From Chloroflexota bacterium (GTDB lineage Bacteria > Chloroflexota > Anaerolineae > Anaerolineales > Villigracilaceae), in assembly GCA_021414245.1 (NCBI GenBank), contig JAIOOU010000005.1:1-34371 (forward strand): DNA of 34,371 bases, given 5' to 3'. Below the pieces are notes generated by a model. It ran no database searches. It was not told the origin of the DNA and saw only the letters and a program-made list of their open reading frames with translations. Position numbers and translations under genes: made by a program. Below are positions 28,665 through 32,587 of this stretch, piece after piece. How positions within the stretch are numbered: the stretch's first letter is position 1; the number at the start of each line of letters is the position of its first letter.

Positions 28665-28703
28665 TGTCAGCTGCTTATGACAAAATGTCAACCCCAAATG
28701 ACA
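28665..28703. promoter_or_regulatory. Two tandem TGTCA-N8-TGACA dyads upstream of the restriction gene
   Basis: TGTCA (28665-28669) and TGACA (28678-28682) flank 8 bp; 3 bp later TGTCA (28686-28690) and TGACA (28699-28703) again flank 8 bp. The two dyads are 21 bp apart, two helical turns, and end 35 bp before the ATG. Such an arrangement suits a dimeric repressor, like operators of restriction-modification systems. Confidence 0.6.
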
Positions 28704-28738
28704 GGTTTTCTTGTAAAATCAATCAAAGGGAAAAACAA

Positions 28739-31675
28739 ATGCCAATTACACCGCAGGACTTTGTAACCAAATGGAAGCGCGTGACGGCTCGTGAGAAGCA
28801 AATTTATCAGGAGCATTTCCTGGATATTTGCCAGCTTGTCGGCCATCAAACCCCAAATGATTACGACCCCACGGGCACACGCTTCGCTTTTGAAATGGGA
28901 GCGGCCAAGACCAGCGGCGGACAAGGCTGGGCGGATGTGGCCAAAATCGGCTTTTTCGGTTGGGAATACAAAGGCAAGGATGCCGACCTTGAAAAAGCCT
29001 ATGAACAATTATTACGGTACCGCGATTCCCTTGAGAATCCCCCGCTTCTGATCGTTTCCGATATCAATAACATCATCATCCGCACCAATTACACCAATCT
29101 TGCCACGCGGACTTTTACCCTCACCCTCGACGACCTGCTCAACCCTGAAAGCATTAAAACCCTCAAAACCGTCTTCACCAATCCGGAACAGCTTAAACCG
29201 CAGGAGACCATTGAAAGCGTAACCCAGGAAGCCGCCAAGCAATTTTCGACCCTGGCAAACGTTCTGCGAAAATTCGGGGAGGAACCGCAGGAAGTGGCGC
29301 ATTTCCTAATCCGTTTGTTGTTCTGTCTATTCGCGGAAGATATTGGTTTGCTGCCTGAGAAACTCTTCCCAAGACTATTGGAGCAAACCCGCCGTAACTC
29401 AAAGGATTTCGCAGAGGTCTTGAAACAATTATTCCGAGCGATGAATACAGGCGGATATTTCGGCGCGGACAAAATATTGCATTTCAACGGCGGATTGTTC
29501 GACGACGACCATGTGCTGCAATTGGACAGCGACGCCATGGACATCATCAGCGACATTGACGGGTTGGATTGGGGAGCCATCAAGCCCTCCATCTTCGGAA
29601 CTCTTTTCGAGCGTGGACTTGACCCAAGCAAGCGTTCCCAACTCGGCGCGCATTACACCGGAGAGGACGATATTATCCTGATCGTCGAACCTGTGCTGAT
29701 GAAACCCTTGCGGGACGAATGGGCCAGGGTAAAAGATGAAGTGCAAAAGATAAAAACCGAGGAAGAAAAGGCCAAAGATAAGAAAAAGAAGGATTTACAG
29801 AAGAAAATCAAGAGCACTTTGCTAGCCTTTGCGGACAAGATCGCAGCGGTAAAAGTGCTTGACCCGGCCTGCGGAAGCGCCAACTTTTTATATGTGGCTT
29901 TGCGCCTTTTACTGGATTTACAAAACGAAGTATTGAATTTCTCGGACGAAATGGGCGCAGGTAGACCATATATTACAGTGACACCTGCTCAACTTTATGG
30001 CATTGAAACCAACGAGTACGCCCACGAACTCGCGCAAATGACCATTCAAATTGGTTACATTCAATGGCTGCGTGATAACGGCTACGGCCAGCCTGCGGAG
30101 CCAATTCTCAAGAAGACAAACAATATCGTGAATATGGATGCGATCCTAACCCCCTCCGCCTTGGCAGGCACCTCCCCCAAATCCGTAGATGAGAAGACCC
30201 TTAAATCAAGAAGCGGTCCGGATTTGGGGGAGGATGGGAGGGGGTCCGAACCCACATGGCCCGCCGTGGACGTCATCATCGGCAACCCGCCGTTCTTGGG
30301 AAGCATCAAACAACGAGAAGAGCTTGGCGAAAAATATCTCGATGATCTCACATTACTTTATAAAGATCGTGTTCCACCTAAAAGCGACTTTGTTTGCTAT
30401 TGGTTTGAAAAATCACGTCAGGCAATAGTAGATGGAAAAGTAAAGCGCGTTGGCTTAATTGCAACTCAAGCAATCCGCAAAGGTCTAAGTCGAACTGTAC
30501 TAGATCGAATAAAAGAAACTGGCGACATTTTTACGGCTTATAGCAATCGCCCTTGGGTTCTTGATGGAGCTTCTGTAAGAGTTTCTATAATTTGTTTTGA
30601 TGATGGTTCAGAAAAGGTAAAGATTTTAGACGATAAGCTTGTTGAAACAATCAATCCAGATTTATCCTCTTCGGCAGATATAACAACCGCAAGTGTGCTT
30701 TCAGAGAATGAAAATATTGCATACCCCGGAACTAAAAAATATGGCGCATTTGATATTGAACCAGAACTTGCTCAAAAGATGCTTGCAGATAAAAGCAATC
30801 CAAACGGCAAGCCCAACTCAGATGTTATAAAACCTTGGGTAAATGGAAGCGACCTTGTAGGAAATCGTCGTAGTATGTGGATTATTGATTTTGGCGTAAA
30901 GACGCCGATTGAAGTAGCCGCACAATATCAATTACCTTTTGAGTATGTCCGTAAAATTATCAAACCAGAAAGAGACAAAGAAAGAATTGCAAGCACAAGA
31001 GATAACTGGTGGTTATTTGAAAGACAAAGACCAGAAATGCGGCAAGCCCTTTCCAACCTAAAGCGCTTTATCGCAACTCCTGTTGTCTCAAAGTATCGAA
31101 TTTTTGTTTGGCTCTCACATCCAACAATTCCTGATGCAAAAGTAACTGTGTTTGCCAAAGATGATGATTACTCATTCGGCATTTTACATTCAAGATTGCA
31201 CGAAATTTGGAGTTTGTTTACTGGTTCGCGACATGGAGATGGAGGCAAAGAAGGTGGCAGACCTGTTTACAATATTTCTACCTGCTTTGAAACCTTCCCC
31301 TTCCCCTTCTCCCCTGGGCACGAGCCGAAGAACGATCCGCGCGTGAAGGCGGTCGCCCAGGCCGCGAAGGAACTCGTCGAGCAGCGAGACCGCTGGCTAG
31401 ACCCCCACCCATCCTCCCCCAAATCTGCTGGGGAGGAGACTTCAAAATTAAATAGCAATGCAGATTTGGGGGAGGTGCCTGCGAAAGCAGGCGGAGGGGG
31501 CAAGCGCACGCTTACGAATTTATATAACCAACGTCCCACCTGGCTGGATTTGGCACATAAGAAACTGGACGAAGCTGTCTTCGCGGCTTACGGCTGGAAG
31601 AATGACCTGTCAGACGAAGAGATATTGGAAAAGTTATTGGCTTTGAATTTGGAGAGAAGCGCTACGACGTCCTAA
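28739..31675 (+). CDS. MmeI-like type IIL restriction-modification enzyme (nuclease, N6-adenine methyltransferase and recognition domain in one protein)
   Basis: This 978-residue enzyme should methylate and cleave DNA at one site through a single recognition domain. The N-terminal nuclease is marked by D66-X9-E76-Y-K78, the MmeI D-X9-ExK pattern (GWADVAKIGFFGWEYKGK). A helical spacer follows. Methyltransferase motif I is DPACGSANFLYV (Asp375), with Ala replacing the usual last Gly of DPACGSGNF. Motif IV NPPF is at residues 516-519. The target-recognition domain and the C-terminal LYNQRPTWLDLAHKKLDEAVFAAYGW helices follow. Two linkers are palindromic-element insertions (residues about 471-502 and 888-921). 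Base composition falls sharply between about 30340 and 31290. The start is ATG 28739 with an aaaggga site. Confidence 0.93.
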   Translation: MPITPQDFVTKWKRVTAREKQIYQEHFLDICQLVGHQTPNDYDPTGTRFAFEMGAAKTSGGQGWADVAKIGFFGWEYKGKDADLEKAYEQLLRYRDSLENPPLLIVSDINNIIIRTNYTNLATRTFTLTLDDLLNPESIKTLKTVFTNPEQLKPQETIESVTQEAAKQFSTLANVLRKFGEEPQEVAHFLIRLLFCLFAEDIGLLPEKLFPRLLEQTRRNSKDFAEVLKQLFRAMNTGGYFGADKILHFNGGLFDDDHVLQLDSDAMDIISDIDGLDWGAIKPSIFGTLFERGLDPSKRSQLGAHYTGEDDIILIVEPVLMKPLRDEWARVKDEVQKIKTEEEKAKDKKKKDLQKKIKSTLLAFADKIAAVKVLDPACGSANFLYVALRLLLDLQNEVLNFSDEMGAGRPYITVTPAQLYGIETNEYAHELAQMTIQIGYIQWLRDNGYGQPAEPILKKTNNIVNMDAILTPSALAGTSPKSVDEKTLKSRSGPDLGEDGRGSEPTWPAVDVIIGNPPFLGSIKQREELGEKYLDDLTLLYKDRVPPKSDFVCYWFEKSRQAIVDGKVKRVGLIATQAIRKGLSRTVLDRIKETGDIFTAYSNRPWVLDGASVRVSIICFDDGSEKVKILDDKLVETINPDLSSSADITTASVLSENENIAYPGTKKYGAFDIEPELAQKMLADKSNPNGKPNSDVIKPWVNGSDLVGNRRSMWIIDFGVKTPIEVAAQYQLPFEYVRKIIKPERDKERIASTRDNWWLFERQRPEMRQALSNLKRFIATPVVSKYRIFVWLSHPTIPDAKVTVFAKDDDYSFGILHSRLHEIWSLFTGSRHGDGGKEGGRPVYNISTCFETFPFPFSPGHEPKNDPRVKAVAQAAKELVEQRDRWLDPHPSSPKSAGEETSKLNSNADLGEVPAKAGGGGKRTLTNLYNQRPTWLDLAHKKLDEAVFAAYGWKNDLSDEEILEKLLALNLERSATTS
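30150..30244 (-). repeat. Palindromic element inserted in-frame in the restriction gene (copy 1)
   Basis: This 95-nt element runs from ccccctcc to gggaggggg. Its core is a perfect 15-bp inverted repeat, cctcccccaaatccg (30171-30185) with 30219-30233, around a 33-nt AT-rich loop. Translated in the gene's frame it gives ~32 residues rich in Ser, Gly and Pro with no counterpart in the family, just before motif IV. The reverse complement matches the copy at 31402-31500. Confidence 0.85.
31402..31500 (+). repeat. Palindromic element inserted in-frame in the restriction gene (copy 2)
   Basis: This 99-nt element runs from ccccc to gcggaggggg in the opposite orientation to copy 1. A perfect 16-bp inverted repeat, cctcccccaaatctgc (31413-31428) with 31460-31475, holds a 31-nt loop, followed by a gcctgc-gaaa-gcaggc hairpin. 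In the frame it adds ~33 residues to a surface linker before the C-terminal RTLTNLYN helix. Confidence 0.85.
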
Positions 31676-31934: not shown

Positions 31935-32022
31935 CCGTCTTCGCATTCTGCGGCTGGAAGAACGACCTATCGGATAAGAGATTTTGGAAAAGTTATTGGC
32001 GTTGGATATGGAAAGGTCGGGG
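31935..32022 (+). pseudogene. Decayed remnant of the 3' end of a second MmeI-like gene
   Basis: These ~88 nt closely match the end of the intact MmeI gene (31575-31660): the segment encoding VFAAYGWKNDLSDEEILEKLL appears as VFAFCGWKNDLSDKR and then shifts frame through a one-base loss. The offset between copies is 360 bp. The remnant keeps the end of the gene only and has no open frame. It is directly followed by the palindromic pair. Confidence 0.72.
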
Positions 32023-32027
32023 TAAAC

Positions 32028-32203
32028 ACCCCCTCCGTCCACTCCCTATCGGTCGGGACACCTCCCCCATTCAAAACCATGAATGGGGGAGGAAAAGGCA
32101 GCGTAGAAATAGGAACCAAATTTTTTATTCAATGCAAGGTTTTTCTCCCCCAATTGTGTTCTTCAATTGGGGGAGATGTCCCGCTCTTGGGGACAGAGGG
32201 GGT
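32028..32203. repeat. Two inverted palindromic elements of the same family
   Basis: The left element carries cctcccccattc (32061-32072) with its 12-bp complement at 32081-32092. The right element carries ctcccccaattg (32145-32156) with its complement at 32164-32175. The outer arms (accccctccgtcc on the left, ggacagagggggt on the right) also match as inverted repeats, so the pair forms one large inverted structure. The right arm ends 3 nt before the DUF559 ATG. The same outer and inner arms occur in the two copies inside the restriction gene. Confidence 0.82.
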
Positions 32204-32206
32204 CTA

Positions 32207-32587
32207 ATGCACAAACGCACAACCCCCAAAGTCTTTGCAAACGCAAAAGAACTAAACCGAAGCCTCACTCCAGCCGAAGAAAAACTCTGGACGAATCTCC
32301 GCGCCCACCGCATGGGAGAAGTCCATTTTAGAAAACAACATGCCATTGGCAACTATATTGTGGATTTTTGTGCCCCCCGCAGAAAACTTGTTATTGAATT
32401 GGATGGCAGTCAACACTTGGAACAGGAGGAATATGACAGGGAGCGAACCATCTTCCTGGAATCAAAAGGTTATCGGGTGCTAAGATTTTGGAATAAGGAT
32501 GTGACGAATCATATGGAGAAGGTTCTGAATGCGATCTGGGAAGCCTTGGGAGAAGAGCGCGGCGATAAAAATAATTCTGCAAATTAA
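32207..32587 (+). CDS. DUF559-domain (Vsr-like endonuclease fold) protein
   Basis: This 126-residue protein matches DUF559, a family with a Vsr/restriction-endonuclease-like fold, with the expected conserved blocks: TPAEEKLWTNLRAHRMGEVHFRKQHAIGNYI, IVDFCAPRRKLVIELDGSQH (candidate catalytic Asp/Glu/Asp/His), YDRERTIFLESKGYRVLRFWNKDV and a C-terminal helix. Length is normal. The start is ATG 32207 because its ribosome site (agaggggg) is supplied by the adjacent palindromic element; an in-frame ATG at 32132 lies before the element and lacks such a site. No methylase adjoins it. Confidence 0.87.
   Translation: MHKRTTPKVFANAKELNRSLTPAEEKLWTNLRAHRMGEVHFRKQHAIGNYIVDFCAPRRKLVIELDGSQHLEQEEYDRERTIFLESKGYRVLRFWNKDVTNHMEKVLNAIWEALGEERGDKNNSAN

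Follow-up and report, generated by a model that had tools for sequence, protein, structure and literature searches.

Triplex-type palindromes around DUF559 genes suggest a small nuclease as the missing partner of a repeat family long known in E. coli

In many bacterial phyla, genes for the small nuclease DUF559 (YcjD) are mostly flanked, on one or both sides, by palindromes in which a hairpin is accompanied by a mirror copy of its purine arm. The association is strong and enriched over control genes, and dispersed copies of the motif co-occur with the gene. In one genus the same ends also bound elements that lack the gene, in E. coli the motif is present at a given site in some strains and absent in others, and some copies lie in frame within host genes. 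Together this suggests that DUF559 is the partner so far missing from a repeat family long known in E. coli, and that it spreads or maintains this family. With moderate confidence, we take DUF559 genes and triplex-type palindromes to form one selfish genetic element.

The window, i.e., the whole stretch of DNA that was analysed (34,371 bp), contains a DUF559 gene preceded by a symmetric double-hairpin element (Table 1). The element is 176 bp long and consists of outer arms and two hairpin-and-mirror-arm motifs in inverted orientation. In each, a pyrimidine arm is followed by a purine arm and then by the mirror copy of the latter; the 18-nt linker of the right half may pair with itself (TGTCC with GGACA). 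Its terminal arm includes AGAGGGGG at 32195-32202, which is also the ribosome site of the DUF559 gene, 4 nt 5' of the ATG at 32207, and the frame of the gene is open upstream across the whole element, so that the open frame extends over 266 aa. The first-pass annotation had described a ribosome site that is the terminal arm of a palindrome and is open in the frame of the gene, and had placed both in the interval 32028-32587; sequence and interval are as it described them.

Folded as single-stranded DNA, the element is predicted to form two inner 13-bp hairpins (32061-32092 and 32144-32176) within an outer stem that spans its full length. The folding energy is -47.7 kcal/mol compared with a shuffle mean of -25.3 (z -7.0), and none of 200 shuffles equals it. 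The motif scan used here asks for a hairpin plus mirror arm with 8-nt arms, one mismatch and loops of up to about 30 and 24 nt. Applied to the whole window it finds three places, namely the two halves of the element and 31402-31437 on the minus strand, and none of 1000 mononucleotide shuffles of 31977-32226 holds the motif. When the loops are restricted to at most 6 or at most 10 nt, the window scan gives no plus-strand motif in 31951-32250. The window motif thus shares its succession of arms with the published bacterial intrastrand triplex motifs (TM), but fails the loop limit of 1-6 nt used in the search for them. No Rfam family matches the window at the gathering threshold.

Table 1. Features of the window discussed in the text, with their positions and the basis of each assignment.
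Feature	Position	Strand	Basis
MmeI-like type IIG restriction-modification gene adjoining DUF559; motif 31402-31437 within ORF	28685..31675	+	Pfam, ORF listing, motif scan
Duplicate 3' end of an MmeI-like gene, shortly 5' of the element	31937..32015	+	repeats of 31577-31656 at 79% and 88% identity
Symmetric double-hairpin (REPIN-like dimer) element	32028..32203	.	ssDNA fold, inverted repeats, motif scan
Left half: hairpin 32061-32073/32080-32092 and mirror arm CCCCCTC	32029..32092	-	motif scan, inverted repeats
Right half: TCTCCCCC...GGGGGAGA, 18-nt linker, mirror arm AGAGGGGG	32144..32202	+	motif scan
DUF559 (YcjD/Vsr-like PD-(D/E)XK nuclease) gene, 126 aa	32207..32587	+	Pfam E 1.3e-39

The window protein scores 134.9 bits against the PF04480 profile, which has a curated cut-off of 20.6, and is predicted to be a PD-(D/E)XK or Vsr-like nuclease from its conserved acidic residues and its solved relatives. 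The residues E24, D53, E64, D66 and D77 are invariant among 13 diverse DUF559 sequences, and the related structures are 3hrl (endonuclease-like, E 1.9e-41) and 3r3p ('Mobile intron protein', E 8.2e-6), the latter presumably the homing endonuclease I-Bth0305I. According to the accessible text of two papers, YcjD has been placed in the PD-(D/E)XK superfamily and its profile detects Vsr (PMC1189080), and the Caulobacter DUF559 protein VsrA is needed for the SOS response upon loss of a cytosine methyltransferase (PMC12907096). For the window protein Pfam lists only DUF559 and MTES_1575, and an HUH (Y1) transposase is not among them.

The first-pass annotation had stated that DUF559 reading frames in other genomes are often preceded by translated G-rich palindromes, and had asked whether such palindromes share their arms. 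The flanks of the family were surveyed in three sets of loci: 62 loci from the phylum of the window and 30 from the order of a Lysobacter genome, both collected with the Pfam profile, and 80 named loci from many phyla, being the best 80 of 577 relatives. Genomes were scanned with a two-sequence alignment in place of alignment A1, which was too diverse for this purpose; the first of the two sequences includes a translated palindrome, so that the 3' side of L123-L202 is biased. When long-ORF rows, partial rows and rows cut by contig ends are left out (22 from the own phylum, 27 from the many-phyla set and 2 from the Lysobacter order, which we take to be Xanthomonadales), 40, 53 and 28 standalone genes with full flanks remain, 121 in all, with at least two genes duplicated between sets (L127/L208 and L194/L227).

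A motif lies within 250 nt of 111 of these 121 genes, the many-phyla part being the best 80 of 577 relatives. By set, it is found on either side of 33/40 genes in the own phylum, 51/53 in many phyla (again from the best 80 of 577) and 27/28 in the Lysobacter order; it is found on both sides of 68/121 (16 in the own phylum, 36 in many phyla and 16 in the Lysobacter order), and on the upstream side of 28, 45 and 21 genes, respectively. Control windows from these loci that lie at a distance of over 450 nt, scanned identically, hold the motif in 14 of 1338 cases, about 1% (3/267, 8/895 and 3/176), and among control genes it occurs in 0/22 PIN and 0/28 Uma2 cases. The palindromes expected in the first-pass annotation are hence a common feature of the family, and the enrichment over other genes, whose absence it had named as a refutation, is found in this sample. 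The mirror-arm scan was devised after the loci and the Holder paper were known and is in this sense post hoc, with controls that received the same scan. With the published loop limit of at most 6 nt, 73/121 DUF559 genes remain positive (16/40, 35/53 and 22/28), against 7/1338 control windows (0/267, 5/895 and 2/176), 0/22 PIN genes and 0/28 Uma2 genes.

The flanks can also be compared with no assumption about their letters, by comparing the 250 nt that precede the gene with the flank that follows it, taken as reverse complement. Inverted similarity then appears in 42/53, 11/21 and 5/19 cases, compared with 10/1639, 0/125 and 0/113 for shifted flanks and with 0/22 for PIN and 0/28 for Uma2 genes; a further set gives 17/28 against 3/137. 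Direct similarity is raised as well (8/19, 7/21 and 24/53 against 1/113, 7/125 and 16/1639 shifted). The flanks are, in other words, often inverted copies of each other with their tails toward the gene. In the Lysobacter order the third arm points to the gene in 20 vs 8 and 22 vs 7 cases and in many phyla in 42 vs 15 and 38 vs 16, while its orientation is mixed in the own phylum (20 vs 18 and 15 vs 13). As to the shared arms of the first-pass annotation, the same letters recur at both termini of a cassette and among members of a lineage, but across phyla it is only the layout that is common.

Plain hairpins with a stem score of 12 or more, a count that overlooks many motifs, occur upstream of 23/46 DUF559 and 0/22 PIN genes, and downstream of 13/46 and 4/22. 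PIN genes are usually preceded by an antitoxin gene and form a weak upstream control, and the Uma2 loci come from 3 genomes. The motif is lacking at 10/121 standalone genes; among the seven of these in the own phylum are L009 and L011, which have 17-bp hairpins with long loops. Two Planctomycete loci, L190 (both sides) and L191 (5' side), carry hairpins whose loops are about 30 nt long and include TTGCA, a variant layout that the scan missed in L190. At L153, L126 and L040 motif units stand in tandem next to DUF559 when inspected by eye, which suggests local amplification.

In its own genome the window gene is one of four DUF559 genes, three intact and one split in two, and each of the four has a motif to one side, at a distance of no more than about 250 nt; the letters differ among them. 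The split gene (L005/L004, G000:C7:31519-31907) is interrupted by a GC-rich stretch of about 120 nt. The element type of the window, searched as GGGGAGATGTCCN{2,16}GGACAGAGGGGG in 31 related genomes, occurs at 20 places in 12 of them, 12 of these places lying within 1 kb of DUF559 and 8 not. In the genome of the window it occurs once, and this is counted against the single-element reading. Dense arrays of DUF559 copies and fragments are seen at L270 (G017:C1:963500-980000), at L271-L273 (G001:C8, C66), in G012:C10 and in G094:C18; the first genome has more than a dozen DUF559 profile matches in about 15 kb. Besides repeat families with as many as 13 copies, these arrays contain window-type elements and further short ORFs, and they look like cassette arrays. 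In the window itself, the duplicated 3' end of the MmeI-like gene looks as if a restriction-modification gene had been lost or swapped there. The ORF of that gene contains repeat-like peptides at roughly 30190-30350 and 31400-31500 (DLGEVPAKAGGGG, with PSSPKSGPLLDL on the other strand), and one such stretch, 31402-31437, is the mirror-arm motif.

To see how dispersed copies relate to the gene, consider the order of the Lysobacter genome, where 48 of 151 genomes have DUF559 at E 1e-3 or better, some as fragments or distant relatives. The TM pattern GGGAGAGGN{4,5}GGGTGAGGG is present in 28 of the 151 genomes, and the backwards pattern in none. DUF559 occurs in 25 of the 28 pattern-positive and in 23 of the 123 negative genomes (Fisher p 2.4e-12, ancestry ignored), and genomes with DUF559 hold 834 of 839 pattern copies, up to 135 in one genome (table summed by hand). 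There are exceptions in both directions: three genomes without DUF559 carry 1, 3 and 1 copies, and 23 genomes with DUF559 lack the exact pattern. Spread of the element in genomes that lack DUF559, the other outcome that the first-pass annotation had named as speaking against a partnership, is hence not what this sample displays, nor, exceptions apart, what E. coli shows (below). A first genome pattern, restricted to one linker length, gives an undercount.

Elements with these ends also exist without the gene. In the genome G424, five stretches of 829-1120 bp that lie between inverted motifs have blocks in common at 76-97% identity. At their ends they match a DUF559 cassette (L269), the ends of which span roughly 50 bp (906-957 and 1315-1362). 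In L264, the only gene-less element with ORFs listed, those between the ends reach at most 116 aa. Pieces matching L264, flanks included, number 34-85 per genome in 20 genomes of the genus of G424, and its locus has different content in ten congeners. The cassette has a full-length match in 16 of the 20, at one place, and is represented by two separate parts in the remaining 4, broken or decayed, from which it follows that the cassette moves rarely in this genus. In G502, where it is broken, there are 7 matches to the cassette query compared with 28-51 elsewhere, yet 37 pieces match L264.

The gene can also be found inside other genes. Where DUF559 lies in a long ORF with enough flank, a motif stands upstream in 26 of 30 cases and is in most read in frame as peptide, e.g., PLPVGEGQGEG, so that the translated palindromes expected in the first-pass annotation do occur. 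Pfam scans of 27 long ORFs place DUF559 between host domains in 10; named by their domains, these are valS, another class I aminoacyl-tRNA synthetase, metH (three times), uvrA, priA, a type I R subunit and two MmeI-like enzymes. Of the other 17, which in part may be fused neighbours, 11 have restriction-modification or DNA-methyltransferase domains on at least one side, DUF1156 being counted as such a domain on our assumption. A splicing (Hint) domain is not among the Pfam families listed for the 27, with 25 of 35 families shown for L191. Plasmid matches came from 44 records, some of chromosome size.

Filled and empty sites can be compared between hppD and hmgA. The gap is 462 nt in the one filled locus that was measured, with a motif near each end, and 21-142 nt in 17 loci without DUF559; filled and empty loci are too diverged for the ends to be placed at base level. 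Among 30 loci of 66 matches, a motif lies at most 250 nt upstream of hmgA in 5/6 with DUF559 there and in 0/24 without. One locus with DUF559 at hmgA, L297, has imperfect motif-like stretches on both sides that the scan missed. This locus, and the failed loop limits of the window motif, slightly lower our confidence in a single element.

The protein YcjD of E. coli is a DUF559 protein. In MG1655 a palindrome (16 bp by eye) reaches into the GTG start codon of ycjD, the last codons of which read CCCTCTCCC, and CCCCTCGCCCCTCTGGGGAGAGGGTTAGGGTGAGGGG follows downstream, ahead of fabI. This flank sequence is similar to TM_ECO, the repeat described by Holder et al. 2015, for which the accessible text gives the layout CCCTCNCCCN3-6GGGNGAGGGN3GGGNGAGGG (PMC4666352). 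According to the same text, there are 23 TM_ECO in MG1655 and 3610 in 262 genomes, with 29 in strain 55989 and 1 in IHE3034, and they are absent from Salmonella; a section heading states stable triplex formation in vitro for the E. coli TM, BoxC structures were found by a related tool, and no link to a mobile element was found (PMC4666352). The words nuclease and DUF do not occur in its main text, which ties TM_ECO to no gene. Triplex motifs rich in G/C are reported to be abundant in Microcystis, Anabaena and Nostoc.

Of 5375 genomes that match a query made of ycjD and its downstream repeat, 3364 cover at least 80% of it. Among 60 evenly sampled E. coli records, in which strains of one lineage are not independent, 37 records with ycjD have 12-27 matching places (median 19) and 23 without it have 1-19 (median 5; Mann-Whitney p 3e-9, with the ycjD locus subtracted). 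The exceptions are PCN033, with 19 places and no ycjD, and four others, including O157:H7 86-24, with 12 each. In five records that lack ycjD (L356-L359, L361), TetR and efflux genes stand upstream of fabI instead of ycjD and sapF. The eef operon has been placed at that locus in the accessible text of PMC12817139, and ycjD and the eef operon therefore alternate at one locus.

Individual motif sites in E. coli differ between strains. Between hrpB and mrcB there is an inverted pair in REL606 and 2014C-3097, none in MNCRE44 (presumably ST131), SCU-122 and TUM1226, and a pair collapsed to a single hairpin in UTME-14; between deoD and deoB the motif is present in E2865 and MS 69-1, and a different hairpin in CJ236, O157:H7 AC-5 and M45. 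At these two loci the flanks align closely and a short patch is replaced, with neither target-site duplication nor clean insertion; other loci are too diverged for such a comparison. This argues against simple cut-and-paste, and would fit copying during break repair or recombinational import. The site between zntA and tusA looks inherited, since 50 of 59 sampled rows have it at full length; its length variants were considered as motif gain and rejected, as they consist of REP-like or other DNA.

Several of these results bear on explanations in which DUF559 does not spread the repeat. Ordinary terminators or attenuators of a small gene would account for palindromes near it, since hairpins near genes are common (a downstream stem of at least 12 in 4/22 PIN against 13/46 DUF559 genes), and termination was the guess of the Enterobacter 638 authors in the accessible text of PMC2869309; but the mirror-arm form is found at 0/50 PIN and Uma2 genes, and the motif, which is read in frame, is not confined to the downstream side but stands upstream too; this makes the explanation very improbable. 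The chance that the association is a sampling artefact is negligible. The query for the named-genome loci was indeed a protein with a translated palindrome at its C end, and this matters for the 3' side of those 80 loci (the best 80 of 577); the two Pfam-profile sets alone give 60/68, however, and the upstream side is absent from the query, so that an artefact is excluded for the main claim.

Two further explanations give DUF559 a place beside the repeats. A Vsr-like host enzyme that repairs or maintains triplex or hairpin lesions would let motifs be tolerated only alongside it, and the gene might lie near motifs because they regulate it. The printed relationship to Vsr (PMC1189080), the need for VsrA in the SOS response (PMC12907096), the instability of E. 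coli TM loci (PMC4666352), each as given in the accessible text, and the co-occurrence of motifs with DUF559 in the order of Lysobacter and in E. coli all agree with such a role, which we nevertheless regard as unlikely, as it leaves unexplained the inverted copies on both sides with inward tails, the gene-less elements with the same ends and the in-frame copies in valS, metH, uvrA and priA. Somewhat more doubtful is that DUF559 genes are cargo, or parasites of homing type, that insert into existing repeats spread by another enzyme or by plain recombination. The relationship to a mobile intron protein (3r3p), the existence of gene-less motif pairs, and the replication slippage discussed in the accessible text of Holder et al. 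(PMC4666352) speak for it, but 834 of 839 copies lie in genomes with DUF559, the only gene compared. DUF559 as the agent remains the simplest account, because it covers the inverted flanks, the gene-less elements with the same ends, the concentration of copies and the settlement in frame.

If DUF559 and the palindromes are one element, its typical unit would be a hairpin with mirror purine tail, then DUF559, then an inverted copy of the first part; in some units, the window's included, the dimer is on one side only, here 5' of the gene. The Vsr-type PD-(D/E)XK enzyme would recognise the single-strand hairpin or the triplex of the motif and nick or cut either at this structure or at the target, after which the element, or a motif copied in trans, may spread via recombinational repair; for the patch replacement in E. 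coli, repair-based copying is a better fit than cut-and-paste. Gene-less motifs would then persist mainly while the genome keeps a copy of DUF559, and since the motif is open in frame, units could settle between the domains of host proteins. A further step is to see here a new class of transposable element across bacteria, whose sole protein would be a Vsr-like structure-specific nuclease, whose triplex-forming ends would be its recognition signal, whose gene-less offspring would arise in trans, whose in-frame ends would allow life inside essential proteins, and of which the TM repeats of E. coli would be the offspring of YcjD. This wider claim we put forward tentatively. A link between DUF559 and TM repeats would give both a testable function, and could explain the wide differences in TM number among E. 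coli strains. The Vsr-like nuclease family is not known to move repeats; if true, the link would add a mobile partnership based on a nuclease family.

Comparison with known systems gives both likeness and difference. The E. coli copies described here fit the TM_ECO layout closely, and TM_ECO share with them paired inverted copies, unstable loci and strain-to-strain differences, as far as the accessible text goes; the loops of the window motif are longer than the TM_ECO search allows (PMC4666352). In the literature searched, which covered neither preprints nor most subscription papers, there was no report of a link between DUF559 and repeats, and the words endonuclease, DUF and triplex do not occur in the main text of the RepRanger paper (PMC12306157). 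DUF559 belongs to the same nuclease family as Vsr and the Vsr-like mobile intron protein (3r3p), and spread by repair, as in homing, would explain patch replacement. The repeats described earlier by Hoyne et al. and cited in Holder 2015 are, we presume, the 'PIT elements'.

A homing gene resides at one site and is not known for flanking palindromes, gene-less copies or a large number of unrelated insertion sites; DUF559 has all three, its gene-less copies being dispersed. As with the MITEs of IS elements, gene-less elements share terminal inverted repeats with a gene-bearing copy, but DUF559 is not a known transposase family, and the alleles compared lack target duplication. Rickettsia palindromic elements and inteins are selfish DNA that lies in frame inside protein genes, as DUF559 insertions do; the DUF559 insertions differ in that the insert carries a nuclease domain and Pfam lists no splicing domain. 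The closest likeness is to REP/REPIN-RAYT (TnpA-REP), in which a small gene lies between inverted copies of a short hairpin-plus-tail element, and dispersed single and paired copies are concentrated where the gene is present. RAYT proteins are HUH tyrosine transposases, REP tails are GTAG-type tags, and flanking by inverted copies of a dispersed repeat is typical of the system; this last feature is found for the DUF559 family. Since the HUH transposase is absent, DUF559 is not a member of RAYT/REPIN, and we read the association as a mobile partnership of nuclease and repeat, similar in operation to RAYT/REPIN but with an unrelated Vsr-like nuclease, which would move or cut the repeat. The data are compatible with the proposal of the first-pass annotation that DUF559 proteins may mobilise or process such repeats in the way that RAYT transposases act on REP elements. 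It differs from REP/RAYT in its PD-(D/E)XK enzyme, in a repeat tail that is a mirror, triplex-capable purine arm, and in copies that lie in frame within host proteins.
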